Source of the DNA: Candidatus Poribacteria bacterium
GTDB lineage: Bacteria > Poribacteria > WGA-4E > WGA-3G
Length of the DNA stretch: 59,476 bases
Direction of reading: 5' to 3'
Assembly: GCA_028821605.1 (NCBI GenBank)
Contig: JAPPFM010000001.1
Coordinates: forward strand, 1 to 59,476
Under the pieces are notes generated by a model, which saw only the letters and a program-made list of their open reading frames with translations, had not been told where the DNA came from and did no database searches. The position numbers and the translations under genes are program-made. Below are positions 7,729-23,654 of this stretch, piece after piece. Positions within the stretch are counted from its first letter, which is position 1. The number at the start of each line of letters is the position of its first letter.

Positions 7729-7798
7729 AGATACAAGATGGTGAAAGGCAGTCTTCAGATTCCGAGATGCGAACTTAAATAAAGGGGAGAGGGTGGAA

Positions 7799-10700
7799 AT
7801 GATGAAGCGATCAGATGAGAGTAATCATTGGATTGTGGAGGAAGTGTCGGGAATCGGAGTTCCCTCCTACAAAAGTAACCATTGGGTTGTAGAGAAAGAG
7901 TCGGGAATCGGAGTTCCCTCCTACAAAAGTAAATGTTTTTACACTGCTTGGGTTGCGTGTGCTTTGTTGTTGCTTGTCCACCTTGTGATTATAGGGTGTG
8001 GACCGTTGACGAGCGATCAGCAATCCAATCTTCCGTTCGAGGATTCCGGTGTAGATTCACGTCCCGAAAAAGTATGGCCCGTGGAACGGACACTCGTCAG
8101 CAACGAGGTTAACTGTATTGCTGCCGATCCAGACAATGTATGGATTGCGACAGCGCGTGGGGTTTCGCGCTGGGAACGTCAGCAGGATAAGTGGCTCCAC
8201 TATACGATGGAAGATGGGCTGGCGAACGATATGGTAAATGCGGTTGCTGTTGATGGGCAATGGGTCTGGTTTGCCACAGATGAAGGTGTGAGTCGCTACG
8301 ATATGCAAACAGACACTTTCGCGACTTTCCGAACTATTGATGGTTTAGCGAGCGACGAAGTCTCCTCTATTGCGATAGATGGAAATTACGTCTGGTTTGG
8401 TACATCCGATGGGTTGAACCGTTATGACAAAACGATTGATAGTTGGGCGGTACGTACCCGAAAAGATGGCTTGGTCAGCAAAGTAATTACAACGATAGCC
8501 GTCGAACCGGAGTATGTCTGGGTCGGCACCGATAGGGAGATAAACCCGGATCCGCATGGATGGGATGAGGATCCAAGGTTCAGCAGAGGTGGCGTGAGCC
8601 GCTACCATCGGGATACCGATTCTTGGAATAACTATACGAAATCGGACGGTTTGATAGACAGCGAAATCGCCACGATTGCAGTGGACGACGACAGTGTTTG
8701 GTTTGGCACGCAAGAAGAAGGTGTCAGTCAGTACAATACGGTTGATCAAACGTTCATCAAAACCTATACGAAAACCGATCTGCTGAAAAGCAATATGATC
8801 ACTTCCATTCGGTCAGACGGTTTCCAAGTCTGGTTTGGGACTGCTAATGCGGGTGTACATCGGTTCATCAAACCCGTCAATACATGGGTACATTACACTA
8901 AAGCAGATGGGTTGTCGAGTAATCATGTGAGTTGGATTGCTATACAAGGTAATGATGTTTGGTTCGCGAGTAAAGAGGATGGTGTAAGTCGCTTCGACAA
9001 AGTGAGCGGTGAATGGACAATTTACAAGCAAGCCGATTTTCTCTCCGACAACGATGTTCGTGCCATAACACGTGATACCGATGGGAACTTCTGGATGGCG
9101 ACAGTCGCCGGGATTTCGGTTTATTCTCCTCAAACGCGTAATTGGGAAATCATCTCCAAAGAGGATGGACTACCGACACCCTATGTCACATCAATACTTA
9201 TTAGTCATCAGCAAGAAGAGTCTGTGGCAGAAACCAGTACGCAACCGTCGCACGCTGACAGCCAAGAACCGACAGCCGAAAACCGTTCTGCACAGGTCTG
9301 GGTTGGGACTGATCGAGGGCTTGGAGCGCGGACGTATACGGGTGACGAATGGACATTTTATACGCCACCTCAAGCGGAGACACACGGTGAGGCTTTCGTG
9401 ACAGCGTTTGATACCGATGCGGCACGGGCGGACTCTGTTGTCTGGCTCGGTACCAGTTCGGGACCCGCCATGTATGATCCAACATCTCAAAAGTGGACGC
9501 AGCTTGCCATAGCGGACGCGCCCGAAAACCCGATTATACTTTCTGTATTTGTTCGTGATGGTAATGTTTGGTTTGGTGGGGCTGAGGGCGTTTGGCGATA
9601 TTCAATCGTCGATAAGCAGATGCAACGTGCTGCCGATGGACTTCCCAATCCGTATGTTAATGTCCTGTTGTCCACAGGGGAAAAAGGGAAAGAAGAGACG
9701 CTTTGGGCGGGAACGCGCCAGGGGCTTGCAAAATATGACAGCACTCGACAGCGTTGGGTCCCGCTGTCCTTTAATAACCAATTGCCGTCTCCCAATGTCA
9801 CTGCGCTCGCTTTTCGAGATGGGACTCTCTGGATCGGTACGCCGCATGGGTTAGGAAGTTATGCAATCGCTTCCGATTCTTGGAATTCGCTCTCAAATGT
9901 GCCGTATAACGTTCGCGACATTCTGTGTGAAGCAAATAATACCCTTTGGCTGGCAACGGACACTGGTCTTATTGAATATGGTACGCAGGATGGAAGAGAG
10001 GTACTTCATCAATCCCGTCCGGTGCGAGAGCCGTTCCTTGAAACCAAAGTCTCACACATCCAATTTGATGGCGATTACATTTGGTTCACTAACTGGAGGT
10101 CTTCGCCGAACGGTAGTATTGTGCGGTTTCATCGTCCAACGGCAACGTGGCGGCGTTTCACACGCTTAGATATTTTACAGTCCACTCAGAAAAGATCCAT
10201 GACCTTTATCCGTTGGACCTACGTAGATACTGATGCCGTTTGGTTCACCACGGACTACGGTGTTCTCCGTTATGATAAAATGGCGGATACGTGGCAGCAT
10301 TGGACGAAAGAAGATGGACTCTCTACAGACGATGTGAATAGAATTGATGTCAGTGAGCAGAGCGTCTGGGTCATTCCGATGATAGGTTTGGAATTAAACC
10401 ATTATAGTAAAGCGACTGGAACATGGAAAGTGGTTGAAGAAGGGGATCACCGCGAGATTGAGCGTGTAAAGGCACTTGGGGTTGATGGACCGGAGGTCTG
10501 GTTTTCATCTGGGCGCGGTCTCACGCGTTACAATGAGATCACTGGTGAATGGAAGGATTTCGGACCAAGGGATGGTCTGGCAGGTAGAGGCGGGGAATGG
10601 ATTACTGTGGATGACGATTTCATCTGGGTTGCGCGTTCGGAATGGGACAGGGGCAGCAACCGTCCATTGTCACGATACGATAAGAAGACAAAAAAATGGA

Positions 10701-12124
10701 CAACGTTTTCAACGAATGACGTACTTGCTGCGAATACCATTAGACGCATTATCTCAACAGAGAACGATGTCTGGATACTCTACAGACCTTGGGAGGATGT
10801 AGGTGTTACCCGATACGACAAGCGGAACAAGGAGTGGACGACAATCAGATCGGGACGCGGAACGCTCGAACTGGCAGTCGATGATGACTATCTGTGGTTA
10901 GCTGCACCCAACGATGGGCTTCGACGATTTCATTTTGCCTCTGGTACGTGGGCAAGGTTTAGAGATATCAAAGGGTTGCTCCATAACCATGTCGGCGAGT
11001 ATGGGCTTGCGGTCGATGAGGACTATGTATGGGTGGGGACCTTGCGCGGGCTTTCTCGTTATGACAAGCGGAAGGAATCTTGGACCCCTTTGACAGCATT
11101 ACCAACGCTTGTTGGACGCACCATTCGGACAGTAGATACGGATGAACGTTTCGTCTGGATCGGTTCCGATGAGGGTATGTCACGCTATGACAAGGTGTTA
11201 GGGACTTGGAAGAATTATCAGCAGGAGGGTGGCCACGAACACATAGAAACCCACGGGGGTCATTGGGACCGACATGGACGGAAAAAGAGAGACTGTCTCT
11301 CCGATAACGTTGTGAGTTCTATTGTAACGGATGAACAATACGTCTGGGTCGGGACACGCGACGGTGCGAATCGCTTTGATAAGATAGCTCTGGAATGGGA
11401 CCAGTACAAAACTCACCACGGGTTGCCCGCCAATAATGTGACTTCTGTCAGCAGTGACGGCGATAGCATTTGGGTTGGGACTAATTCCGGGATTGGGAAG
11501 TATCCCCGCACAGCGGATGACCTCAACGCCTGGGTTACCTACACATCAGGGACTGAGATTCAGCCTTCCGCTGTGTCTAAGGAGTTCGCCGAATCATTGG
11601 TTACCGACCAAATTTGGTGCATCACGGCGAGCAAGAAACACGTCTGGGTTGGGACACGCCGTGGTGTGAGTAAATACGACATCGGTAGAGACATCTGGAA
11701 GACAATCACAGTGAAAGATGGGCTTGCGAGTGATGAAATCAGTTGTATCGCTATTGATGGCGACAATGTCTGGTTTGGCAGCGATCTCGGTGTGACACTC
11801 TATAATGAAAAGACAGAAGTTTGGGCGGCCTATACGACAGAGGATGGACTCGCCAGCAACAAGGTTACCACTATCGGTGTTGATGGAACAGAGGTCTGGA
11901 TCGGCACTTACAATGCTGGGGTCAGTCGGTTTGATCAGTTGACAAATACCTGGACGACTTACACCCGAGAGGACGGTTTAGCGCATAACGGTATCCTTTC
12001 TATGGCTATAGGGGACACTTACATTTGGTTGGGCACATATCGTGGATTGAGTCGTTTCGATAAACGGACAGGAACTTGGACTACCTTCACGGAGTCCTAT
12101 GGACCAGAGGATATTTTGAGGTGA
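7799..12124 (+). CDS. Giant lipoprotein of Reg_prop-type beta-propeller repeats, no kinase domain
   Basis: About 1441 residues. The N-terminus carries a hydrophobic segment ending in the lipobox-like LVIIGC (Cys at residue ~68), so it is probably a lipoprotein. The rest is dozens of ~40-residue units of the form ..G.YVWFGT..GVSRYD..T..W..YT..DGL..N.V..IA.D. This is the 'two-component regulator propeller' repeat normally found in the sensor part of hybrid histidine kinases. No kinase, receiver or HTH domain follows, so it is a stand-alone sensor or binding scaffold. The start is ATG 7799 (GTG 7793 is possible), behind a GGGGAGAGGG purine tract. The signal peptide is preceded by two tandem 18-residue units encoded by a dispersed repeat (7820-7927). 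A Gln/Glu/Ser-rich linker near residues 470-500 also looks repeat-derived. Confidence 0.85.
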   Translation: MMKRSDESNHWIVEEVSGIGVPSYKSNHWVVEKESGIGVPSYKSKCFYTAWVACALLLLVHLVIIGCGPLTSDQQSNLPFEDSGVDSRPEKVWPVERTLVSNEVNCIAADPDNVWIATARGVSRWERQQDKWLHYTMEDGLANDMVNAVAVDGQWVWFATDEGVSRYDMQTDTFATFRTIDGLASDEVSSIAIDGNYVWFGTSDGLNRYDKTIDSWAVRTRKDGLVSKVITTIAVEPEYVWVGTDREINPDPHGWDEDPRFSRGGVSRYHRDTDSWNNYTKSDGLIDSEIATIAVDDDSVWFGTQEEGVSQYNTVDQTFIKTYTKTDLLKSNMITSIRSDGFQVWFGTANAGVHRFIKPVNTWVHYTKADGLSSNHVSWIAIQGNDVWFASKEDGVSRFDKVSGEWTIYKQADFLSDNDVRAITRDTDGNFWMATVAGISVYSPQTRNWEIISKEDGLPTPYVTSILISHQQEESVAETSTQPSHADSQEPTAENRSAQVWVGTDRGLGARTYTGDEWTFYTPPQAETHGEAFVTAFDTDAARADSVVWLGTSSGPAMYDPTSQKWTQLAIADAPENPIILSVFVRDGNVWFGGAEGVWRYSIVDKQMQRAADGLPNPYVNVLLSTGEKGKEETLWAGTRQGLAKYDSTRQRWVPLSFNNQLPSPNVTALAFRDGTLWIGTPHGLGSYAIASDSWNSLSNVPYNVRDILCEANNTLWLATDTGLIEYGTQDGREVLHQSRPVREPFLETKVSHIQFDGDYIWFTNWRSSPNGSIVRFHRPTATWRRFTRLDILQSTQKRSMTFIRWTYVDTDAVWFTTDYGVLRYDKMADTWQHWTKEDGLSTDDVNRIDVSEQSVWVIPMIGLELNHYSKATGTWKVVEEGDHREIERVKALGVDGPEVWFSSGRGLTRYNEITGEWKDFGPRDGLAGRGGEWITVDDDFIWVARSEWDRGSNRPLSRYDKKTKKWTTFSTNDVLAANTIRRIISTENDVWILYRPWEDVGVTRYDKRNKEWTTIRSGRGTLELAVDDDYLWLAAPNDGLRRFHFASGTWARFRDIKGLLHNHVGEYGLAVDEDYVWVGTLRGLSRYDKRKESWTPLTALPTLVGRTIRTVDTDERFVWIGSDEGMSRYDKVLGTWKNYQQEGGHEHIETHGGHWDRHGRKKRDCLSDNVVSSIVTDEQYVWVGTRDGANRFDKIALEWDQYKTHHGLPANNVTSVSSDGDSIWVGTNSGIGKYPRTADDLNAWVTYTSGTEIQPSAVSKEFAESLVTDQIWCITASKKHVWVGTRRGVSKYDIGRDIWKTITVKDGLASDEISCIAIDGDNVWFGSDLGVTLYNEKTEVWAAYTTEDGLASNKVTTIGVDGTEVWIGTYNAGVSRFDQLTNTWTTYTREDGLAHNGILSMAIGDTYIWLGTYRGLSRFDKRTGTWTTFTESYGPEDILR
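7820..7927 (+). repeat. Two tandem 54-bp units inside the propeller lipoprotein N-terminus
   Basis: Units 7820-7873 and 7874-7927 encode SNHWIVEEVSGIGVPSYK and SNHWVVEKESGIGVPSYK. Each contains GTCGGGAATCGGAGTTCC followed by CTCCTACAAA, also related to the intergenic copy at 7492-7516. The repeat therefore appears to have entered the coding region in frame and duplicated. Confidence 0.85.
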
Positions 12125-12295: not shown

Positions 12296-14275
12296 ATGGA
12301 AATAAATGCAGACGACCGAAAACCCCGGATCTGTGCCCGTTTTCCTGTTAAATGTCTTTTTTTTCTATTGAAAGTCTTGCTTTGCTGTGCTCTCGCGTTC
12401 CGCGCTGAGGCAGAGGATGCGTACAGTCTATTCGGTAAATTGTTCCTATCCGGACGCGTCGAATACGATTTCACAAATAGACGAAACTTTCTCGCGGATA
12501 CAGAGGAAGAACGAGTTAGACAAGACAGTTTTGATTTCGATCGCCTCTTTCGGCGTGGTTTTCATAGCGTCATGGTGATTGAAGAAACCGCGGGCAGAGT
12601 TAAGAATATCCTGAGTCTCGGTGAAGTTCCAACGACCTTCACGAAGTTCACTTTCGATCAGATCGACCTCAGTGGTGTTCGCTGGGAGGTCCGCTCTGAT
12701 CGCACGGATTGGACGATCCTGATGGTCCCCGGATTGCTCAATCGACTGAACGGACAAGAAGGACAAACGGAAGGGTCCGGGATCGGCTTGCGCGAGGTCA
12801 CAAAGTTCGGCAGGTCGCAGTTGGGACTTTCTTGGTACTACCGTAAGGTACCCGTATGGGCGGTGGATTTGGAAACCAATTTCACGAACTACGGTATAAA
12901 AGCCGAGGTGGCTGTCACGCCGAAAAGCGCGTTGCAGAAAAACTTGCGTTCACGTTTCGATGCGACGACAACAGTTTTCAAAGCCTTCCAAACTGTAGGT
13001 GATACGATTTTTCAGGCGGAAGCGTATCGCGTCGGCCCCAGATTCGATGCCTCCCGTTCAGTTGGTGATAACGATGATCAGGACCGCTACTCCGATAACA
13101 CACCGGCTGATCCTCCCTCTCTAATTATTCCCGGTGACCTTGATAAAAATAACAACGGTGTCTTTGACTACGAAGATGATATTCTGCTTTTTGATGTCGA
13201 TGAGGATTTCCTTGATGAAAGCGATCAGAACAACAACGGCATTCGTGATGAAGAGGAGAATGATAAGGACCCCAATTACGAGTTCGATGTCGGGCTTCAA
13301 GGTGTCCGGCTTTTCATGAACCGTAAGATAAGTCAACAGGCGAGTGTGGTTGACTTAGATCTTGGGTTACAGATTGAAGAAAATCTCAGACTTAGGAATA
13401 CACCGTCCTCAACGAAAGCGTTTGCTAATCTGATTTATCGGAAGGAACTCGCGCGGGCTTCTTCACTCATTTTTGAGAACGAACTGAAATTGGTAAAAGA
13501 CCGGATTCCTGACGAGACGTGGTATTTTGCTGGATTTTTAAGTGGAACGGAAGAACGGCTCTATCGGTCACAGCCAGAGGTGCGAAAAATGGAGAGGGAT
13601 GGCGGTGTGGAATTCTTCCATATTGATGGCGGCACCGAGGTCGAAAAACGGCGCAAGGATCCACTGCTGATGCAGAACGATCTGATTAACACTGCCAAGA
13701 TCACGTATGAATATTTGGGTATTGACCGGATGGTTACCACGGCTCGTGCCAAAGTTCAATACGACTACGATTTTGAAAAGGACAATCAGCATTACGAGGT
13801 CGGCATTTTCAAAACCCTCTACCGGATGCGTCCTACCAAATCACTTGAGATCAGTCCAATGTTCAAGTCCACCATCCGTAACGGATTTCGGATGGCGGAG
13901 AACCGGCTTGAATACCTTTCCTTGAGCGGAGAAATCGACGGTAGGGAAGCCTTTCGCCGACTCCGGTTACGGGAGATTGAACGGACATACGTACGGGATA
14001 TGGCTTCAGCACTTATCCTTAAGGTCGTGTATCAGTTTACGAAGACGATCAAGCTTACCGGTGGTGGGCAAATTCTTCTGTTCAATGATATGCGTGACAA
14101 TGATAACGACTTTGTACGTCAAGCATTGTTAGCCGAGATGGAAAAAAGTTTTGTCGCTTACGAGAAGCGGATGTTTCTGCATGTCGGTGCTCGGTACATA
14201 GATCAGCGCGCGATCGGGGATGTTAATGATCAGAACTACATGGAAATTTTTGTGCGTGTCTTTGGGAGATTCTAA
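12296..14275 (+). CDS. Exported hypothetical protein, probable outer-membrane/envelope protein with Asp/Asn-rich Ca-binding-like segment
   Basis: A 659-residue protein whose N-terminal hydrophobic stretch (about residues 20-38, ending AFRAEA) is a likely signal peptide. The middle (about 280-325) has an acidic segment with DKNNNGVFDYEDD and DQNNNGIRDEEEND, resembling thrombospondin type-3 or EF-hand-like calcium loops. The remainder alternates charged and aromatic residues in a pattern suggestive of beta strands (YRKVPVWAVDLETNF, YDYDFEKDNQHYEVGIF) and ends in a Phe (VRVFGRF), as outer-membrane barrels often do. No family is recognised. The start ATG has no strong ribosome-binding site, but no better in-frame start keeps the signal peptide. 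It follows the propeller lipoprotein in the same direction; a link is possible but not shown. Confidence 0.7.
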   Translation: MEINADDRKPRICARFPVKCLFFLLKVLLCCALAFRAEAEDAYSLFGKLFLSGRVEYDFTNRRNFLADTEEERVRQDSFDFDRLFRRGFHSVMVIEETAGRVKNILSLGEVPTTFTKFTFDQIDLSGVRWEVRSDRTDWTILMVPGLLNRLNGQEGQTEGSGIGLREVTKFGRSQLGLSWYYRKVPVWAVDLETNFTNYGIKAEVAVTPKSALQKNLRSRFDATTTVFKAFQTVGDTIFQAEAYRVGPRFDASRSVGDNDDQDRYSDNTPADPPSLIIPGDLDKNNNGVFDYEDDILLFDVDEDFLDESDQNNNGIRDEEENDKDPNYEFDVGLQGVRLFMNRKISQQASVVDLDLGLQIEENLRLRNTPSSTKAFANLIYRKELARASSLIFENELKLVKDRIPDETWYFAGFLSGTEERLYRSQPEVRKMERDGGVEFFHIDGGTEVEKRRKDPLLMQNDLINTAKITYEYLGIDRMVTTARAKVQYDYDFEKDNQHYEVGIFKTLYRMRPTKSLEISPMFKSTIRNGFRMAENRLEYLSLSGEIDGREAFRRLRLREIERTYVRDMASALILKVVYQFTKTIKLTGGGQILLFNDMRDNDNDFVRQALLAEMEKSFVAYEKRMFLHVGARYIDQRAIGDVNDQNYMEIFVRVFGRF

Positions 14276-14322: not shown

Positions 14323-14367
14323 TTGACAAATATATTTATACGGTGTATAATACTATTACTACGTATT
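14323..14367 (+). promoter_or_regulatory. Consensus sigma70 promoter with possible BlaI operator
   Basis: TTGACA (14323-14328), a 17-bp spacer and TATAAT (14346-14351): a perfect consensus promoter 114 bp before the BlaI-type repressor gene. A dyad AATAC-N9-GTATT (14349-14367) overlaps the -10 and the expected start site, a sensible place for an autoregulatory operator. The dyad assignment is inference. Confidence 0.72.
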
Positions 14368-14464
14368 TAGAATTAGTATTTGATAATCGTAATTCGCAAT
14401 ATGAGCATTAGCATTCTGGCTCGTGATTCAAATTCACCTTTAACTAACATAAGGATTAAATCAG

Positions 14465-14851
14465 ATGAAAACCAAAAGATTACATCCCTTAGAACTTGAG
14501 GTGATGAAAGTGGTATGGAGGTTGACGCGTGCTACGGTCAACGATGTTCTTGATAACATTAACCGCAAGCTCGCCTATACCACTGTCGCCACGACTATGA
14601 AAAGTCTGGAAAAGAAGGGTTTTTTGTCGCATCAAGTTGACGGTAGGACGTTCGTTTACCAGCCTTTGGTCAAAGAAACAGAGATTACGCATTCCATGCT
14701 CAACGATTTGCTGGAACGCCTCTTTGACAACTCAGCTGAGAAGTTGGTGAACACGCTCCTCGAGGTGCGACAAACCAGCGTAGATGAACACAACCGTTTA
14801 CAAGCGTTGATTAATAACTATCAACCTGAAGGAGAAGAAACCAATGACTAA
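14465..14851 (+). CDS. BlaI/MecI-family transcriptional repressor
   Basis: A 128-residue winged-helix DNA-binding protein. The N-terminus LHPLELEVMKVVW, the recognition region AYTTVATTMKSLEKKGFLSH and the wing DGRTFVYQPLV are typical of the BlaI/MecI/CopY penicillinase-repressor family. The C-terminal helices would serve dimerisation. Members repress their own operon until a BlaR1-type protease relieves them. The gene sits behind a consensus promoter with a dyad over the -10. Its last 8 nt overlap the start of the M56/BlaR1-like gene (ATGACTAA), so the pair is translationally coupled. No beta-lactamase lies nearby, so the regulated target is unknown; many environmental members control other genes. 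Confidence 0.9.
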   Translation: MKTKRLHPLELEVMKVVWRLTRATVNDVLDNINRKLAYTTVATTMKSLEKKGFLSHQVDGRTFVYQPLVKETEITHSMLNDLLERLFDNSAEKLVNTLLEVRQTSVDEHNRLQALINNYQPEGEETND

Positions 14852-17800
14852 GCAAATCCTTCTTTCCTTGCTCAATTGTTCGTGGCAGTGGATGCTTCTG
14901 ATCGGCTTGATATGGTTCGTCGCAACTCCCCCATTCCACAAAAGTCGTCGCTCCAACACCACTGTTCATCTGCTCTGGCTGTTATCTTTACTCAGTCTAC
15001 CGATCTTATTCGGTTTGAATCAATTTGTGCCAGCACCCTCCATCGGCAACACGGTGCCAGAATTAGCGCAGGCGAGACCAATAGAGGTATCGGGTTTAGT
15101 TGCTCAGGCTACGGATTTACCAGAAATTTCGTCCACTGAAAACTATACACAATCCGAGAACCAACTGTTTATTGGCGGTAAATCTTTCTTTAATTGGAAA
15201 ACCAAAACGGACCTGCTATTGTGTGTCTGGGCAATTGGTGCACTTGCCATGTTAGTCCGTTTCATCTTTGGCTTGTACCGAATCTATCAACTCCGACGCA
15301 ATGCTGTGGCGGCTGATGATTCATATCAGGCAATCTGCCGACGATTGGCGCGACAATTGGATATAAATCGTCCGGTTACTGTATGCTTCTCGGATCGGGT
15401 ATCATCACCGATTTCATTCGGTTGGTTATCACCCTACATTCTGATTCCACGAAAACTGAATTTGGAGCAGTTTGAGTTGGTAGCCGCTCACGAGTTGGCA
15501 CATGTACAACGCCTTGATTGGTTGACGAACCTCTTTTCGCACTTGGTGGGTGTTATCTTCTTCTTCCATCCAATTTACCATTTCCTTAACCGCGAGCTCG
15601 TCCGCGTACGGGAACGTATCTGTGACGATTGGGTCATCCGATTGACGGGTGCCAGAAAAAACTATGCGCAGTGTCTATTGGATCTGGTGCGTCACGAAGA
15701 CCGAGTTATCCCACTTGCGTTATCACTCAATCAGCCATCGCAATTGGAATCTCGCATTGATTCTATTTTGAAAAGCAATCGACGGTTAGACGTGCAATTG
15801 AAGCCGCGTTTGCAGTTAATGGTAGCGACTTTACTCCTAACCTGCCTTCCCTTATTAGCGATGGCACAATTAGTGCCTTTGAAGACTTTCCAAGTCTCGC
15901 TGTTCGCTCAGACACCTCGGAAAGCAGAAAAAGAGGTTGGTAAGACTGACGAAAAGCAGGTCATGCAAAAAGAGAAAGCTGGAAAGATGGATGGGAAACA
16001 GTACAAAGATGATTCATATATCAAAGTGAAAGACCCTATCCTGTTTGCGAAGTCTGAAGAAAACAAGATATTCTCTGGACCGCAACCTGGGGAAAGACTC
16101 CCGGCATTGATGGTGACCGGCATTGATGGCGAACTTGAGGGTCAGACGTATGATATCACCGCTGAGATGGATGGGAAGCCATTTGTATTGTTCTTGCAAG
16201 ATACCAATGGCGTTGGCGTAAAAGGGCTTGTTAACGTGTTTGAGTTGCTGCTTCAAATTGATGCTTTCCAAAAAAGGCATAGCAAGGCAACGGGTGCCGA
16301 AAAGTCTAATGAAGGGCTCCAGATAGGTGTTGTGTTCCTTGCAGATAATCTTGACACTCTACCTGAATGGGCGCGTGATATGTTAAGAAAAGAGGTTCCA
16401 AATGAGGTATTAACAGGATTATCGCCCGATGGACGTGAAGGACCAGGGAGTTATGGACTGAACCGCAATGTGGCACAGACCGTTCTTATCGCTAAAGATG
16501 GGAAAGTGCTACACAACTTCGCTTTCACACAACCGATGCTCTATCCCGATCCACATTTCCTCGGTGCCATCGCAGACGCAGTTGGAGCAGATGCCCTTGC
16601 GCTGGAGAAATGGTTGAATGAAGCAACAACGAAACGCAGCGACGAGAAAAAGGTGAAGGCTGTCATCATTAAAGAGAACGACGATACCTCTGGTGATACT
16701 CATGACTGGTGGTTGGAACTCCGCAATCTAACCGATAACGAAGTGAACTTGAAAGGGTGGACACTCGACATTGTCACCACCGAATTGGATACTGAAGGGA
16801 AGTTAATCCGATTCACTAACGATGTTAAAATCCCCGCTGGTGGTGTCATTATTAAAGATATCGACGATGCCTCTGGTGATGCTCATGACTGGTGGTTGGA
16901 ACTCCGTAACCCAACCGATAACGAAATGAACTTGAAAGGGTTGACCGTGAACCTTTTCGCCCCCAAGTTGGATACCGAGGGGAAGTTAATTCCAGTTCTC
17001 TTTTTTAATAAGGATGTTAAAATTCCCGCTGGCGGTGTCCTTCGGGTTCCTTACCCGGAATCCCTCGAAAAATTGGGCATTATCTTTCAGGAATATGAGC
17101 AACCCCACAAAGAAAAAAAGGAACGTGGGCAGACAATGGAGAAAGACGATGCTCGCGAGCGTGAACACACTCCATCTCTCGAAGAACTCGTCAAGCCGTT
17201 CGACAAAGATGGCGATGGCAAATTGAATAAGGAAGAAGGCATGGCAATGCGCCGCGCCTTAGTAAATCGGGAATCCCCAAACCGATACCGCAGAGAGAAC
17301 GTTGAAGTGAAAAACCCTGCTGGGTTTGAAAAGGTGCGGGGCGCAACGCTCTTTTCTGGTCCACAATCCGGTGAAAATCTGCCACCATTGATGGCTAAGG
17401 GCATCAATGGTGAAACGAAAGGCAAAACGTTCGATGTTATCGCCAAGGCAGACGGACAACTCCTCGTTCTCTTCCTACAAGATGAAAGCGGTCTCGGTTT
17501 ACGAGGGTTGCTTGGCATTTCTCGTTTACTCGCTCAAATTGCCGAGAAGTCTGAACAGGCAATGCATATAAATGCTGTGTTTTTAGGGGATACACCGGAT
17601 ACCGTGGAGAATCAAGCCAGTAAGTTAGTATCACATGTTCCAAGTGGTGTCTTACTTGGTGTTTCCCAGGATGGTCGTGAAGGACCAGGCAGCTACGGAC
17701 TCAATCGCAGTGTCGCGCAGACGGTTATCATCGCCAAAGATGGCAAAGTGCTATATAACTTTGCTTTCACGCAACCTATGCTCCGTCCAGATCCATACCT

Positions 17801-18233
17801 TCTTGGGGCTGTTGGTGAGGCAATTGGTGTAAAACCTAAGACGCTTGAAAAATGGTTGAATGTAGGAGATCTTACAATCGCCATTAAAAACCCTACCGAG
17901 GGTGAAAAGACTGGCAAAATGCGCTTAAACGGAAACATTGTCCAGTTTGACGAATTGGGCTCTCGCCTTCTCAATTTGCCTGAAGAACAAAAATCTATGC
18001 TCACTATCCAATCTGGACGAGATGTACCTCATGAACAGATTGTCAAAGTAATGGATATGGCAAAAAAGGCAGGTATTGATCAAATTGGATTTGCAATCGA
18101 TTCAACTGAAGGTGATCGGATGCAGCGAGCTTTTGTCGGACAGCTTCGAGAGATGGTCGAAAAGGGCGAAATCACTGGCGAAGAAGCCCGCGAACTATAC
18201 GAGGAAGCATTTCCTCGTAGCAAAGAAGATTGA
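14844..18233 (+). CDS. BlaR1-like M56 metallopeptidase sensor fused to tandem redoxin-like, lamin-tail-like and EF-hand modules
   Basis: An 1129-residue integral membrane protein. The N-terminal ~330 residues are a BlaR1/MecR1-type M56 peptidase: several membrane segments and the zinc motif HELAH at residues 216-220, with a downstream RERICDDWV segment. Instead of a penicillin-binding sensor, the C-terminal part holds two copies of a module beginning FSGPQ.GE.LP.LM..GI.GE (about 408 and 835). Each copy later has GPGSYGLNR..AQTV and KDGKVL.NFAFTQPML, suggestive of a cysteine-less redoxin fold. Between them are two DWWLELRN.TDNE.NLKG repeats like lamin-tail domains (about 602-730) and an EF-hand loop DKDGDGKLNKEE (about 787-798). 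A GAAGGAG site precedes the ATG inside the repressor gene. Inference: a signal-transducing protease paired with the BlaI-type repressor, with an unknown stimulus. Confidence 0.85.
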   Translation: MTKQILLSLLNCSWQWMLLIGLIWFVATPPFHKSRRSNTTVHLLWLLSLLSLPILFGLNQFVPAPSIGNTVPELAQARPIEVSGLVAQATDLPEISSTENYTQSENQLFIGGKSFFNWKTKTDLLLCVWAIGALAMLVRFIFGLYRIYQLRRNAVAADDSYQAICRRLARQLDINRPVTVCFSDRVSSPISFGWLSPYILIPRKLNLEQFELVAAHELAHVQRLDWLTNLFSHLVGVIFFFHPIYHFLNRELVRVRERICDDWVIRLTGARKNYAQCLLDLVRHEDRVIPLALSLNQPSQLESRIDSILKSNRRLDVQLKPRLQLMVATLLLTCLPLLAMAQLVPLKTFQVSLFAQTPRKAEKEVGKTDEKQVMQKEKAGKMDGKQYKDDSYIKVKDPILFAKSEENKIFSGPQPGERLPALMVTGIDGELEGQTYDITAEMDGKPFVLFLQDTNGVGVKGLVNVFELLLQIDAFQKRHSKATGAEKSNEGLQIGVVFLADNLDTLPEWARDMLRKEVPNEVLTGLSPDGREGPGSYGLNRNVAQTVLIAKDGKVLHNFAFTQPMLYPDPHFLGAIADAVGADALALEKWLNEATTKRSDEKKVKAVIIKENDDTSGDTHDWWLELRNLTDNEVNLKGWTLDIVTTELDTEGKLIRFTNDVKIPAGGVIIKDIDDASGDAHDWWLELRNPTDNEMNLKGLTVNLFAPKLDTEGKLIPVLFFNKDVKIPAGGVLRVPYPESLEKLGIIFQEYEQPHKEKKERGQTMEKDDAREREHTPSLEELVKPFDKDGDGKLNKEEGMAMRRALVNRESPNRYRRENVEVKNPAGFEKVRGATLFSGPQSGENLPPLMAKGINGETKGKTFDVIAKADGQLLVLFLQDESGLGLRGLLGISRLLAQIAEKSEQAMHINAVFLGDTPDTVENQASKLVSHVPSGVLLGVSQDGREGPGSYGLNRSVAQTVIIAKDGKVLYNFAFTQPMLRPDPYLLGAVGEAIGVKPKTLEKWLNVGDLTIAIKNPTEGEKTGKMRLNGNIVQFDELGSRLLNLPEEQKSMLTIQSGRDVPHEQIVKVMDMAKKAGIDQIGFAIDSTEGDRMQRAFVGQLREMVEKGEITGEEARELYEEAFPRSKED

Positions 18234-18310: not shown

Positions 18311-19705
18311 ATGAAGGGAATAAAACGATGCGATGGGATTAACCGTCGTGATTTTCTGCGCGTCGGTGGATTGGCGGCACTCGGATTAGGGTTAGGTGAT
18401 TTTTTCTACCTCCAACGCGCCTTTGCTGTGGGGGCGGGGTCACCGCGAAGAAACACCCAAGCAAAAACCCCCTACGCAGCAAAAGCGAAATCCTGTATCC
18501 TGATATGGCTTGATGGGGGTCCCAGCCATTTGGAGACCTTCGATCCGAAACCTAACGCGCCGCAGGAAGTTCGCGGACCGTTAAAAACTATTCCCACAAA
18601 TCTGGCAGGCGTATATATCAGTGAATGTTTGGAACGAACGGCAGGCATTATGGATAAAATTGCCATCATTCGCTCGATGACCTCGCCGCTTGGTGAACAC
18701 AGTCTCGGCACGCAATACTTAATGACTGGATACAAACCTACGCCTGCGTTGGAGTATCCGACCTTTGGGGCAACGGTCACCTATATCAGATCTCAAAATA
18801 GTCAGAACGCTTCAAGAGATGCACTCACCGCTTTGCCGCCCAACATTGCAGTTCCGAATTTCACAGGTCAAGTGTCGGGAAACGGTTACTTACCGAATGC
18901 TACGCGCCCATTTTCTGTTGGCAGTGATCCGAAAAGACCTGACTTTAAAGTTCGCGACCTTGATTTCTATGAGGGGCTTGATTTGCAACGCGTTTCCCGG
19001 CGTAGGCAGTTCGTCAATGCGCTCAACGAATTCAGTCGTGCCAAAGACGCTGACGCAACGACGGTATCGGATCCGGACTTAGAACGTGCCTATAATCTGA
19101 TTACATCACCCGAAGCCAAAGCAGCGTTCACGCTTTCCGAGGAGCCGCAAGAGGTACACCAGCGATATGGTCGGGGTGGTGTGAACGGAATCGGGCAGAG
19201 CTGCTTATTGGCACGCAGGCTTGTTGAACGTGGTGTGCCATTCGTGACCGTCAATCATACTGGGTGGGATACGCATAACGATATATTCCAGTTGAAAGAG
19301 CGATATCCTACCGATCGGAATGCACATCTACCCTCCCTTGATCGGGCATTGAGTGCGTTGATTCAGGACCTTACCGATCGTCGCATGTTGGATGAAACGC
19401 TCGTGGTGGTTATGGGCGAGTTTGGACGTACCCCGAAGATTAACTCGCAAGGTGGACGTGATCATTGGCCCAACGTGTTCAGCGTGATGTTGGCAGGTGG
19501 TGGTGTGCAAGGCGGTCAAATCGTCGGTAGTAGCGATGCGCTCGGTGAGTTTCCAAAGGAACGTCCCGTGACACCATCGGATCTGTCAGCCACAATCTAT
19601 ACGCTGCTCGGTATTGACCCCAGTTTTGAGTTGCATACCAGTGACGGGAGACCTGTCCGCGTTGCTCCTGATGGTGCTAATGTTGTTTCGGAATTAATCG
19701 CTTAA
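18311..19705 (+). CDS. DUF1501 family protein with Tat signal (sulfatase-like fold)
   Basis: 464 residues from ATG 18311, chosen because GAGGAG lies 10 nt upstream and the twin-arginine signal NRRDFLRVGGLAALGLGLG then sits at the N-terminus. Conserved blocks include CILIWLDGGPSHLETFDPKP, GEHSLGTQYLMTGY, NHTGWDTHNDIF and VVMGEFGRTPKIN, with GGRDHWPNVF, as in DUF1501 proteins (alkaline-phosphatase/sulfatase-like superfamily). These are exported, folded before export, and in Planctomycetes they usually pair with DUF1549/DUF1553 cytochrome proteins. Such a protein is encoded 1.6 kb downstream in the same direction. The enzymatic role of DUF1501 is not established. Confidence 0.9.
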   Translation: MKGIKRCDGINRRDFLRVGGLAALGLGLGDFFYLQRAFAVGAGSPRRNTQAKTPYAAKAKSCILIWLDGGPSHLETFDPKPNAPQEVRGPLKTIPTNLAGVYISECLERTAGIMDKIAIIRSMTSPLGEHSLGTQYLMTGYKPTPALEYPTFGATVTYIRSQNSQNASRDALTALPPNIAVPNFTGQVSGNGYLPNATRPFSVGSDPKRPDFKVRDLDFYEGLDLQRVSRRRQFVNALNEFSRAKDADATTVSDPDLERAYNLITSPEAKAAFTLSEEPQEVHQRYGRGGVNGIGQSCLLARRLVERGVPFVTVNHTGWDTHNDIFQLKERYPTDRNAHLPSLDRALSALIQDLTDRRMLDETLVVVMGEFGRTPKINSQGGRDHWPNVFSVMLAGGGVQGGQIVGSSDALGEFPKERPVTPSDLSATIYTLLGIDPSFELHTSDGRPVRVAPDGANVVSELIA

Positions 19706-19932: not shown

Positions 19933-21285
19933 ATGAAATGTATACCCGCAACAATTTTAACTTTAATCTTGGTTGGTGTGTTGGTTTCGGTTTGCGCGCT
20001 TTACGCACAAGATCGGACAAAAGAGGATTATTGGAATCAGTTCCGCGGTCCAAATGGAGACGGCAAGGCAATAGGTAGTGCCCTCCCTACCGAATTTAGC
20101 GAAACGAAAAACGTCCGTTGGAAAACACCTATTCACGATAAAGGGTATTCATCGCCTATTGTTTGGGGAAATCAGATTTGGGTGACAACCGCGCGTGAAG
20201 ATGGCAGAGAACTCTTTGCGATCTGTGTAGACTTGGAGAGTGGGGACATCTTGCACGATATAAAAGTATTCGATGTCGCGGAACCGCAACTTGAACACGG
20301 GGACCTCAACAGTCACGCTTCGCCGACTCCAATTGTAGAGGAAGGACGCATCTATGTTCACTATGGCACTTATGGCACCGCCTGTCTGGACACGAAAACA
20401 GGCGAGAAACTTTGGGAACGCCGAGACCTCAATTGTGATCACCGTGTGCGTCCCGCGTCTTCTCCGATTATTGATGAGGAGACACTATTCCTTACCTTCG
20501 ATGGCGTTGATGTGCAGTTTATTGCTGCACTGAATAAAAACACTGGGGACACCTTGTGGCTGCAGCATCGAAAAGTTGACTCAAATTTTGAGGATGTTCT
20601 CAGAGCCAAGGGTGTTAAGGATATTGAAGAAACGAAAAAAGAAAAGCCAAACGATAACAGGAAATCTTATGCAACGCCAACGATTATCACATATCAAGGA
20701 AAGAAGCAGTTGGTGAGTCCGGCAGCGGAAGTCACAATATCATACAATCCGAAAACAGGCGATGAACTTTGGCGCGTTCGACATGAAGGGTGGGGCTGGA
20801 ACGTTGCATGCCGTCCGATTTTTGCACACAATCTTGTCTATTTTACAACTGGCGTGGAAAAATTATTGCTGGCTGTTGATCCGTCTGGCATGGGTGATGT
20901 TACGGATACACATACCGTTTGGAGCCATCGCAAGGGTGCTCCTGAAATACCGTCGCCACTCATTGTTGACGACTTGATGTTTATGGTTAACGAGGGCGGT
21001 GTCGTCTCTTGTATAGAGGCAAAGAATGGAAATCTTGTATGGAAAGGTCGTGTCGGCGGAAATCACTGGGCATCACCGCTATATGCAGGTGGCAACATCT
21101 ATTTTTTCAGCATGGAAGGACGAGTGTCGGTTATCCGTGCGGCGCGCGAATTTAAATTACTTGCACGGAATGAGTTTGATAACGAATTTATTGCCTCTGG
21201 TGCCGTTGCTGGTAACGCGCTAATTCTGCGTTCGCTTACCCACCTCTATTGTATTGAAGAAATGAATCCAAGTGAACGAAAATAA
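19933..21285 (+). CDS. Exported PQQ-type beta-propeller repeat protein
   Basis: A 450-residue protein with an N-terminal signal peptide (hydrophobic residues 5-24, ending ALYAQ). The start of the mature part, WNQFRGPNGDGKA, is the usual opening of planctomycete/verrucomicrobial PQQ-like propeller proteins. Several blades with A.D..TG...W motifs follow (LDTKTGEKLWERR, LNKNTGDTLWLQH, EAKNGNLVWKGR). These are BamB/quinoprotein-like propellers, but the catalytic residues of PQQ dehydrogenases are not evident, so it is more likely structural or binding. The ATG at 19933 has a weak ribosome-binding site. It lies downstream of the MITE and 27 nt upstream of the DUF1549/1553 gene, probably co-transcribed with it. 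Confidence 0.86.
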   Translation: MKCIPATILTLILVGVLVSVCALYAQDRTKEDYWNQFRGPNGDGKAIGSALPTEFSETKNVRWKTPIHDKGYSSPIVWGNQIWVTTAREDGRELFAICVDLESGDILHDIKVFDVAEPQLEHGDLNSHASPTPIVEEGRIYVHYGTYGTACLDTKTGEKLWERRDLNCDHRVRPASSPIIDEETLFLTFDGVDVQFIAALNKNTGDTLWLQHRKVDSNFEDVLRAKGVKDIEETKKEKPNDNRKSYATPTIITYQGKKQLVSPAAEVTISYNPKTGDELWRVRHEGWGWNVACRPIFAHNLVYFTTGVEKLLLAVDPSGMGDVTDTHTVWSHRKGAPEIPSPLIVDDLMFMVNEGGVVSCIEAKNGNLVWKGRVGGNHWASPLYAGGNIYFFSMEGRVSVIRAAREFKLLARNEFDNEFIASGAVAGNALILRSLTHLYCIEEMNPSERK

Positions 21286-21312: not shown

Positions 21313-23592
21313 ATGAAAATCATTCGGTTAGCTCCTATAGCATTGACACTATCAGTCGTCTTATTTTTCTGCGATTACCTCCACCAGAATATATCTTTTG
21401 CAGATGACGATCAGACTAACTTTGCTGCATCAAAATCGTCTGACCGTGTTGATTTTGAAAATGATTTGATACCGATTTTTACCAAGTTCGGGTGTAACGC
21501 TGGGGCATGTCATGGCGCAGCTGCTGGTCGGGGTGAATTCAATTTGTCGCTCTTCGGTGGTAATCCACAAGCGGACTATGCGGCGATTGTTCGGCAGCTC
21601 GCAGGACGGCGCATCAATCTGATGCACCCAGAAGAGAGCCTCGTCATTCTAAAACCGACAGCGCAAATCAGTCATGGCGGTGGGCAGGTTTTGGATGAAA
21701 ATGGAGAAGGCGCGCGATTGCTCCGCAATTGGATCCGGCAAGGCGCGACTTACGAAACGCTACGTCATTTGGAGCGTGTTGAAATATCGCCGCAAAAACA
21801 TGTTATCTCTACTCTTGAGCGTCCGGTTCAACTGCACGCAACTGCCCATTTTTCAGATGGGACAAGAGAAGACGTGACACGATGGACTGTCTTTACACCA
21901 GAGGACACTTCAGCGATTGAAATTGACACAGCCACTGCCGTCGCCAAAGTGCTTCGCCGCGGTCGGCATATCATTCTTGCTCGTTATCTCACAGAGGTCG
22001 TTCCCATTGAGTTTATTGTACCTTTGAACAAAGTTCTGCCACACAGCCCAATTCAGAAAAACAAGCCTGAAACGAAGTGGAAGGCGATCCAAGAGAGAAG
22101 CACGTTGATACCTAAACCCACTTCACTTAACCGCAAGGAAAATTTAAAAATTGATGATGAAATCCTCAAATTACTCTCAACGCTCCGATTGCCAGTATCC
22201 CCACCTGTTGATGATGCCACCTTCTTACGTAGAGTGACACTTGACCTCACCGGACACCTCCCTACATCAGATGAGACGACAGCATTTCTCGCAGATTCCA
22301 ATAGAAATAAACGGGAAACGTTGGTGGATACATTGCTTGGGTCGGATGAATTTAACGAGTACTGGACATTGCAGCTGGCGAAGCTGCTACGGATTGGCGC
22401 GCAGGAAAGAAATACACAAGGCACTTTTGTCTATCACCAATGGCTTTCCGAACAGATTCGCGACGGTGTTGGATATAATCAGATAGCACGTTCAGTTATT
22501 TTAGCAACAGGCGATTCCCATGAGGTCGGTCCGGCGAATTTTTACCGCACAGTAAATGGAGCGCGAGAACAAGCCGAATTCATGAGTGAACTCTTCATGG
22601 GAGCTCGACTCCGATGCGCGAATTGCCATAACCACCCACTCGACAAATGGACACAAGACGATTACCACGGATTGGCGGCGATCTTTGCGAAAATAGAGAG
22701 CGATCAGATCGTTAAGGTAAAACCGTCGGGTGAGGTTATCCACCCAGCGACGCGGGAAAAAGCAGTGCCGCGGATTCCCGGCAATTGGTTTTTGCCTGCC
22801 GATGTTGCTGATGGGCGAGTCGAATTGGTGGATTGGCTAACAGGTCAAGACAACCCATACTTTGCCAAAGCGATCGTTAACAGATTGTGGAAGGCGATGA
22901 TGGGACGAGGGTTAGTCGAACCCGTTGACGATTTCCGATCTACCAATCCAGCCACCCACCCTGCGTTGCTAACAGAACTCGCTGACGACTTCGTGGCACA
23001 CGGCTATGACTTACGATGGACACTCAGACGCATCGCGCTCAGTGAATCTTACGCACGCAGTGCAGATACGCTCCCCCAAAACGCGACGGATGATCGTTTC
23101 TATTCACATGCGCTGCAAAAACCGCTTGAACCGGAGGTGTTGGCGGATGCCATTTCAGATGTCCTCGGTATACCTGACACCTACGGCAATGAACCAAAAG
23201 GCACTCGTGCGGTCTCTCTATTCAATCCAAACACTGAATCCGAGGCACTTGATATCTTAGGACGATGTGGACGTGAAACCTCATGTGAGAGTGCTACTGA
23301 AGTAACGGATGGACTTCAGCGTAAACTGCACCTGTTCAATGGCGATCTTCTCAATGCTCGCATCGGGGTTGCGGGCAGTCGACTTGACAGATTGATGGCA
23401 GTTGACAAATTACCGATGGAGATTGTTAGCGAGTTCTACCTTGCTGCGCTAAGTCGGTATCCAACAGAGACCGAGCAACAGTTTTGGGAACAGCACATTG
23501 ATGTCAATTCATCTGCCAATTTGCAACGCGCGATCCTCGAGGACATGGTGTGGAGTCTGCTAACCTGTAATGAGTTTGTGGCAAATCACTAA
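21313..23592 (+). CDS. DUF1549/DUF1553 protein with N-terminal cytochrome-like region
   Basis: 759 residues. A signal peptide (about 1-30) precedes a planctomycete-type region with CNAGACHGA (a CxxxCH-like haem site, about residues 61-70) and an Ig-like beta segment. DUF1549 starts about residue 280 (LPVSPPVDDATFLRRVTLDL, then LTGHLPTSDE) and contains FMGARLRCANCHNHPLDKWTQDDY, a CxxCH haem site. DUF1553 follows (LVDWLTGQDNPYFAKAIVNR, then RGLVEPVDD and LRWTLRRIALSESYARS). This matches the PSD1/PSCyt2 arrangement common in Planctomycetes and Poribacteria. Probably a periplasmic multi-haem or haem-like protein acting with the DUF1501 partner at 18311, possibly in polysaccharide degradation; that role is inference from recurrent gene clusters. 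Confidence 0.88.
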   Translation: MKIIRLAPIALTLSVVLFFCDYLHQNISFADDDQTNFAASKSSDRVDFENDLIPIFTKFGCNAGACHGAAAGRGEFNLSLFGGNPQADYAAIVRQLAGRRINLMHPEESLVILKPTAQISHGGGQVLDENGEGARLLRNWIRQGATYETLRHLERVEISPQKHVISTLERPVQLHATAHFSDGTREDVTRWTVFTPEDTSAIEIDTATAVAKVLRRGRHIILARYLTEVVPIEFIVPLNKVLPHSPIQKNKPETKWKAIQERSTLIPKPTSLNRKENLKIDDEILKLLSTLRLPVSPPVDDATFLRRVTLDLTGHLPTSDETTAFLADSNRNKRETLVDTLLGSDEFNEYWTLQLAKLLRIGAQERNTQGTFVYHQWLSEQIRDGVGYNQIARSVILATGDSHEVGPANFYRTVNGAREQAEFMSELFMGARLRCANCHNHPLDKWTQDDYHGLAAIFAKIESDQIVKVKPSGEVIHPATREKAVPRIPGNWFLPADVADGRVELVDWLTGQDNPYFAKAIVNRLWKAMMGRGLVEPVDDFRSTNPATHPALLTELADDFVAHGYDLRWTLRRIALSESYARSADTLPQNATDDRFYSHALQKPLEPEVLADAISDVLGIPDTYGNEPKGTRAVSLFNPNTESEALDILGRCGRETSCESATEVTDGLQRKLHLFNGDLLNARIGVAGSRLDRLMAVDKLPMEIVSEFYLAALSRYPTETEQQFWEQHIDVNSSANLQRAILEDMVWSLLTCNEFVANH

Positions 23593-23654
23593 TACAACGA
23601 CTCTATTCAAATAGAATTGGGTCGTATCCGTTGTTTTATTACGAGGTAAGTTTC

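Follow-up and report, generated by a model that had tools for sequence, protein, structure and literature searches.

A BlaI/M56 repressor-protease pair of Candidatus Poribacteria with a cysteine-free thioredoxin-fold ectodomain that relatives also keep without the protease

Results

A BlaI/M56 pair with a multidomain ectodomain

We analyzed a 59,476-nucleotide stretch (the window; contig JAPPFM010000001.1) of the genome of a sponge symbiont, Candidatus Poribacteria (5.99 Mb in 60 contigs), which encodes a BlaI/MecI-type repressor and, overlapping its 3' end (14844 versus 14851), an M56 protease fused to a large exported ectodomain (Table 1). A preliminary description of this locus had proposed a complete repressor-protease pair with neither a penicillin-binding domain nor a beta-lactamase, the C-terminal half of the protease being a novel sensor. 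Pfam confirms the pair, with a Peptidase_M56 match of 124.4 bits over residues 10 to 307 (gathering cut-off 31), and the repressor aligns with MecI over the length of BlaI (E = 6.8e-12); a CopY/TcrY copper-repressor identity for the latter was rejected, at 70 bits against an equivalog cut-off of 121.95. No transpeptidase or penicillin-binding family is found in the M56 protein up to E = 10 in Pfam, the blaR1_generic model reaches 80.5 bits, below its cut-off of 400, and neither a beta-lactamase nor a resistant transpeptidase gene is present among the seven neighboring window genes scanned, the rest of the genome not having been searched. The proposal of a sensor holds in part: the C-terminal half is a possible sensor where it is fused, but it is also kept under selection without the protease core, in a gene slot that usually precedes a DUF1501 homolog. 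With the fused protein as query, we retrieved 12 named loci, 11 of them in Poribacteria metagenome-assembled genomes and the twelfth matching the ExbD part alone.

Table 1 Features of the BlaI/M56 locus in window coordinates
Feature	Coordinates	Strand	Basis
Sigma-70-type promoter, TTGACA-N17-TATAAT	14323..14351	+	12/12 consensus; conserved among orthologs
Putative BlaI operator (AATAC-N9-GTATT plus downstream TTAGTATT half), overlapping the -10 box	14349..14380		Conserved in ortholog promoters
BlaI/MecI-type repressor	14465..14851	+	Penicillinase_R, 109.5 bits (cut-off 22.6)
M56 protease fused to exported multidomain ectodomain, 1129 residues	14844..18233	+	Open reading frame, Pfam
M56 core, residues 1-341, with predicted membrane segments	14844..15866	+	Pfam, hydropathy, match to BlaR1 cryo-electron microscopy chain
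HELAH zinc motif, residues 216-220	15489..15503	+	H, E, and H invariant in 21/21 A3 sequences
E257-xxx-D261, predicted third zinc ligand and partner Asp	15612..15626	+	Invariant in A3; matches BlaR1 E242xxxD246 (accessible part of PMC9834060)
A339-M-A341/Q342, signal-peptidase-like site after last membrane segment	15858..15869	+	Strict [AST]xA rule
RX-I module, cysteine-free thioredoxin fold (predicted)	16068..16619	+	Module match, structure model, fold comparison
Two lamin-tail domains (about residues 605-666 and 667-738)	16656..17057	+	Pfam LTD, 85% DNA repeat
Single EF-hand loop DKDGDGKLNKEE, residues 787-798	17202..17237	+	Motif; Pfam below cut-off
RX-III module, cysteine-free thioredoxin fold (predicted)	17349..17861	+	Module match, tree, model
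ExbD/TolR periplasmic-type domain, residues 1009-1088	17868..18107	+	Pfam ExbD; identity to stand-alone ExbD
DUF1501 gene, usual downstream neighbor	18317..19705	+	353.6 bits
PQQ-type beta-propeller gene	19933..21285	+	PQQ_2, 89.1 bits
PSCyt2/PSD1 (DUF1549/DUF1553) gene	21313..23592	+	139.4 and 128.4 bits

The closest solved structure to the protease core is the BlaR1 cryo-electron microscopy chain (E = 8.9e-21, with a 21-row alignment of M56 cores, A3, as the profile query). H216, E217, H220, D225, E257, D261, Y274, and R304 are invariant in all 21 A3 sequences, and the eight catalytic and supporting residues of BlaR1 named in the accessible part of its published account (PMC9834060) are all matched in the poribacterial core. 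These alignments mark the core as a true M56 protease unit of the BlaR1 type. The BlaR1 autocleavage loop (Ser283/Phe284) aligns with S294/L295 of the poribacterial protein, and the cleavage site of S. aureus BlaI (Asn101/Phe102) aligns, via MecI, with a Thr/Leu pair in the poribacterial repressor, which places Leu at P1' in both predicted sites and Phe in both staphylococcal ones. As the M56 ortholog of genome G018 carries Phe in its own loop while its BlaI is unchanged, the Leu/Leu match represents a consistency and not strict covariation.

In the ectodomain, RX-I comes first, followed by two lamin-tail domains, then an EF-hand loop and RX-III, and at the end an ExbD-like domain. The duplicated redoxin-like (RX) module and lamin-tail-like repeats of the preliminary description are both evident, the former as a direct repeat of 245 nucleotides with 72% identity and the latter as one of 147 nucleotides with 85% identity, accompanied by an LTD match of 41.5 bits (gathering cut-off 34.3) in two stretches. 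Its putative calcium-binding EF-hand is represented by a canonical loop motif, but the Pfam EF-hand models remain under cut-off (E = 0.054). Overlooked at that stage was the ExbD/TolR match at residues 1022 to 1085 (27.5 bits, cut-off 25.4), restricted to profile positions 61 to 125 of 128, such that the N-terminal membrane helix with the motor Asp is absent. The domain as a whole (residues 1009 to 1088) is 58% identical over about 80 residues to the same genome's stand-alone ExbD gene.

Cysteine-free modules with a thioredoxin fold

Structure prediction of the ectodomain returns a thioredoxin fold for both RX modules and no conventional penicillin-binding fold. The RX-I model (predicted local distance difference test score, pLDDT, 82.8) superimposes on 3gl3, a DsbE/TlpA protein, with a Z of 15.1 and a root mean square deviation of 2.6 over 137 residues, and 800 of 1000 re-aligned chains have a Z of 8 or more to the RX model; a fold missing from the structure-match lists was given no evidential weight. 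A 785-residue model reaches reasonable confidence over the two RX modules and over the ExbD-like domain. RX thus shares its fold with TlpA, ResA, DsbE, and the peroxiredoxins but differs from them in that none of the 62 modules collected contains a CxxC motif; 56 of the 62 are wholly devoid of Cys. The window protein has seven cysteines, none of them beyond residue 334, which leaves its ectodomain Cys-free and makes thiol redox sensing unlikely; an active thioredoxin or peroxiredoxin enzyme was likewise rejected, the active-site cysteine(s) being missing. By sequence alone, relatives of RX were found neither among PDB sequences nor in plasmids, and the best Pfam match (E = 0.015) is not worth naming; planctomycete "redoxin-domain" proteins may resemble it. 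Remote RX-like pieces also occur in G037, a genome outside the family, in the vicinity of open reading frames that resemble DUF1549 and DUF1501 genes; as the contigs there are short and broken, we gave them no weight.

A tree of the 62 modules resolves three groups, RX-I, RX-II, and RX-III, and the window protein holds the first and third; comparison with three-module relatives suggests that it has lost the middle one. The alignments comprise 20 of the fetched ectodomains (A2) and the 21 M56 cores of A3, and duplicate rows from the same genome (L034/L105, L035/L103, L036/L046, L042/L104, and similar) entered the trees once. In G014, a frameshift in the lamin-tail repeat (L046, 2226-2238) splits the RX-fused gene, which may be an assembly error in a low-coverage contig, and the modules of this genome were read from the two frames separately.

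The ectodomain persists without the protease core

We surveyed 84 genomes of the phylum, 30 of which have an RX match; setting aside a truncated copy (G022) and the remote pieces in G037 leaves 28 RX genomes. Twenty-one of these have the M56 fusion alone; in one (G078), the fusion stands next to a protease-free RX-RX protein; and the remaining six (G004, G019, G054, G056, G060, and G065) encode RX in protease-free form alone. The protease-free proteins are full-length and keep an export signal. Five of the six genes in the last group sit upstream of a DUF1501 homolog, as in the window, and four of these five again follow a homolog of the protein encoded at 12296-14275, whereas the stretch fetched for G065 did not yield it; the sixth, in G019, has the upstream neighbor found in the window and a contig end downstream.

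What remains of the switch differs among these genomes. In G004, a single 6.66 Mb contig, BlaI, promoter, and operator are retained and the protease core alone is gone. In the short contig of G019, the core is missing and BlaI is reduced to a tail ahead of the gene. The two halves occupy separate loci in G056, the protease-free RX protein in the usual slot and a BlaI-M56-ExbD copy without RX elsewhere, and neither G054 nor G060, both of which keep the RX gene, gave a match with the window BlaI as query. In-frame deletion junctions, in window residues, join 13 to 319 in G004, 44 to 327 in G019 and G078, and 9 to 325 in G054, G056, and G065; the G060 N terminus could not be aligned to the M56 start. 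Since the M56 start is retained in three junction sets, loss is favored over an unfused ancestor.

The RX-I tree (29 rows) requires five label changes, both in the best tree and over the 5-95% range of bootstrap trees, and its well-supported branches force three. The approximately unbiased (AU) test rejects a single clade of all protease-free rows (p-AU = 2.8e-5), as well as grouping G004 with G054/G056/G065/G060 (p-AU = 9.0e-5) or G060 with G054/G056/G065 (p-AU = 8.8e-4). G019 held with G078 is not rejected (p-AU = 0.145), and as these two share a junction, a count of five losses was cut to four; by this count, the protease core appears to have been lost in four separate events.

Purifying selection retains RX without the protease, and the core without RX. 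Pairwise ratios of nonsynonymous to synonymous substitution rates (omega), simple counts affected in some pairs by saturation (dS over 1), are 0.10 to 0.19 for the two RX modules in 11 pairs with at least one protease-free copy, among them 0.13 to 0.17 in the three pairs in which both members lack the protease as a group, and 0.13 to 0.21 in eight fused pairs. The M56 core gives 0.11 to 0.16 over seven pairs, with 0.11 to 0.13 in pairs involving G022, where RX is truncated, and G007, where DUF4097 replaces the ectodomain, and 0.16 for the separate BlaI-M56-ExbD copy of G056. For BlaI, omega is 0.03 to 0.10 over seven pairs, including three pairs with G004, in which no M56 core adjoins it (0.045 to 0.088).

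A candidate release site

The signal peptidase SpsB is described as cutting the linker that follows the last helix of S. aureus BlaR1 at Gly331/Gln332, with the sensor being shed (accessible part of PMC9834060). The poribacterial A341/Q342 is aligned in place with this site, and Gln follows both the BlaR1 cut point and the predicted poribacterial one. A strict [AST]xA motif follows the last membrane segment in 23/23 RX-fused M56 proteins, 6/6 with other ectodomains, eight of nine divergent paralogs, and all seven protease-free RX proteins; at a control membrane segment, it occurs in 1/23 of the RX-fused proteins and in none of the six with other ectodomains. A Paraburkholderia comparator, whose M56 gene lies beside a class A beta-lactamase, has a strict site at neither segment. 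This anatomy suggests that signal peptidase probably releases the fused ectodomain at A341/Q342.

Promoter, neighborhood, and other M56 proteins

The promoter upstream of the pair is as strong a consensus as first described. The AATAC-N9-GTATT dyad lies at 14349-14367, and the block from there through TTAGTATT is kept in 14 of 17 aligned ortholog promoters, with one row cut by a contig end and two diverging. This dyad had also been offered as a pointer to co-regulated genes, a use we dropped as uninformative: it is not enriched in the genome (four sites versus six for a reversed control) and therefore by itself names no regulon.

In 24 of the 28 RX genomes, a same-strand DUF1501 gene follows the RX gene, and G019 is cut by its contig end. 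From the RX-less genomes, 15 were searched with the protein of the upstream neighbor and 10 fetched; none of the 10 fetched stretches, at least two of which end near the slot, contains a DUF1501 or PSCyt2/PSD1 homolog, and copies elsewhere in these genomes are possible. The upstream neighbor (12296-14275) is a 659-residue protein with acidic DxNNNGxxD-like loops and no Pfam match at E = 0.01, yet it is 87 to 92% identical in 15/15 RX-less genomes searched, a high conservation for a protein without a family. Just before it, 7793-12124 encodes a 1443-residue protein with two-component-regulator propeller repeats (Reg_prop, PorZ-like), and downstream of the locus an alpha-L-fucosidase-type protein is found at 23574-25589 (56.9 bits). 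A homolog of the latter directly follows the 12296-type gene in RX-less G077, G009, and G074 and lies near it in G071.

Other M56 proteins of the phylum harbor different ectodomains. A second BlaI-M56 pair in the same genome (L002, 1061-3816, contig C54) ends in an AhpC/TSA thioredoxin-family domain with a WAIWCGFC motif, and a separate AhpC/TSA-family gene lies just upstream of it. In G007 (L059, 4408-6489), DUF4097 stands in place of the RX ectodomain, outside the usual slot. Long HEAT-repeat ectodomains occur in the BlaI-M56 proteins L062, L063, and L064, which belong to other families of the order; the repeats were recognized by Pfam in L062 and by eye in L063 and L064.

Discussion

On balance, we favor a reading in which a BlaI/M56 induction module is fused to an independently useful exported protein; as several related species keep the ectodomain after loss of the protease, it probably has a job of its own beyond sensing. 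BlaI on an operator overlapping the -10 box would repress the operon, as its family and the operator footprint suggest, and the M56 core, with its active-site residues complete, would cut BlaI once triggered, by analogy with BlaR1. The last M56 membrane segment doubles by its anatomy as a signal peptide, being the sole export signal left in the protease-free versions, and would export what we take to be a noncatalytic binding protein of the envelope. Its gene usually lies next to DUF1501 and PSCyt2/PSD1 genes, and selection retains this protein with or without the protease. Signal peptidase probably frees the fused ectodomain at the BlaR1 shedding position, and a fraction still tethered may inform the protease of ligand or envelope state, the weakest step of the scheme; in the fused form, the ectodomain may additionally serve as a sensor. 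Of these links, ligand and shedding are the least certain.

Several observations weigh against this reading. The ectodomain is positioned like the BlaR1 sensor, and fused forms predominate (22 of the 28 RX genomes), both of which favor a sensor role. The lamin-tail region is poorly modeled in the 785-residue model (pLDDT under 50), and the RX genes of G001, G002, and G018 have no DUF1501 neighbor, a single RX, and no ExbD match. In the comparison for the candidate release site, the control segment is also positive by the strict rule in six of nine paralogs; an earlier, looser A-x-A rule was nondiscriminating (12/23 at the last segment versus 17/23 at the control), and the strict rule and its wider search range were chosen after that result was known. 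A dedicated ligand-binding sensor of M56, comparable to the penicillin-binding domain of BlaR1, with the protease-free copies as decaying relics or decoys, would account for the shared position and the prevalence of the fusion, and BlaI and the M56 core are conserved and under selection as it would predict. We nonetheless regard it as unlikely, given protease-free copies that are full-length, exportable, and constrained among themselves, and given two genomes, G054 and G060, that keep the RX gene with no match to the window BlaI.

Repeated fission, the gain and loss of ectodomain modules, and their replacement by DUF4097 or HEAT repeats in relatives could also reflect two neighboring genes that fused by chance and without functional meaning when the family arose and have since been coming apart again. 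Such a history seems improbable in view of the conserved junction site and of M56-ectodomain fusions that recur with varied ectodomains, including the thioredoxin-family domain of the same genome's other M56 protein. A further proposal assigns the key role to the ExbD-like domain, which would pair with the cell's ExbD or bind peptidoglycan and in this way let the protease sense how the envelope is energized or what state the cell wall is in. It draws on the identity to the genome's own ExbD, on the retention of ExbD in the RX-free M56 protein of G056, and on the dimerization of ExbD periplasmic domains and the anchoring role of peptidoglycan described in the accessible part of PMC10771500; with the motor-Asp helix absent, and no ExbD match in several RX genomes, fused and protease-free alike, we consider this coupling to a Ton/Tol motor very improbable. 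Finally, and only tentatively, the fused gene product may be a polyprotein that signal peptidase cleaves to yield an M56 antirepressor that stays in the membrane and a Cys-less envelope protein that is set free, one message thus providing both switch and product.

Like BlaR1/BlaI of S. aureus, the poribacterial system pairs a repressor of the BlaI type with a gluzincin M56 core whose eight active-site residues are the same, and a signal-peptidase-like motif lies past the last membrane helix. The system differs in lacking the penicillin-binding sensor, in having Leu instead of Phe at P1', and in an ectodomain that persists without the protease in relatives. The ExbD-like domain shares the periplasmic C-terminal part of ExbD/TolR but sits at the end of a large ectodomain. 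Other Poribacteria M56 proteins, with HEAT, DUF4097, carboxypeptidase-regulatory-like, or AhpC/TSA domains, follow the same plan of BlaI, M56 core, and an exchangeable exported domain, and the role of M56 as a carrier of such domains looks general within this phylum. The neighbor families of the window are shared with the PSCyt2/PSD1/DUF1501 neighborhoods of Planctomycetes and Verrucomicrobia; genes with PSCyt domains are reported to be of unknown function in the accessible part of PMC5615132. In the open-access literature, a set that excludes most subscription papers and all preprints, we found nothing on BlaI/M56 in Poribacteria or on M56 ectodomains kept without the protease, and no link between PSCyt2/PSD1/DUF1501 and a BlaI-M56-fused protein.

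BlaR1-type proteases have been known chiefly for sensing beta-lactams. If the polyprotein proposal were true, shedding of the BlaR1 sensor would be an older trait that let M56 proteins collect and release exported domains, and the sensor role would be secondary. In the lineage described here, the outer half can be followed through fusion with the protease, separation from it, and persistence in its absence, each half being under selection of its own. This makes testable what purpose many M56 ectodomains serve, and whether shedding in S. aureus is receptor turnover or product export, and it connects a BlaI-type induction switch with the DUF1501 and PSCyt2/PSD1 genes, which are known from planctomycetes but poorly understood.

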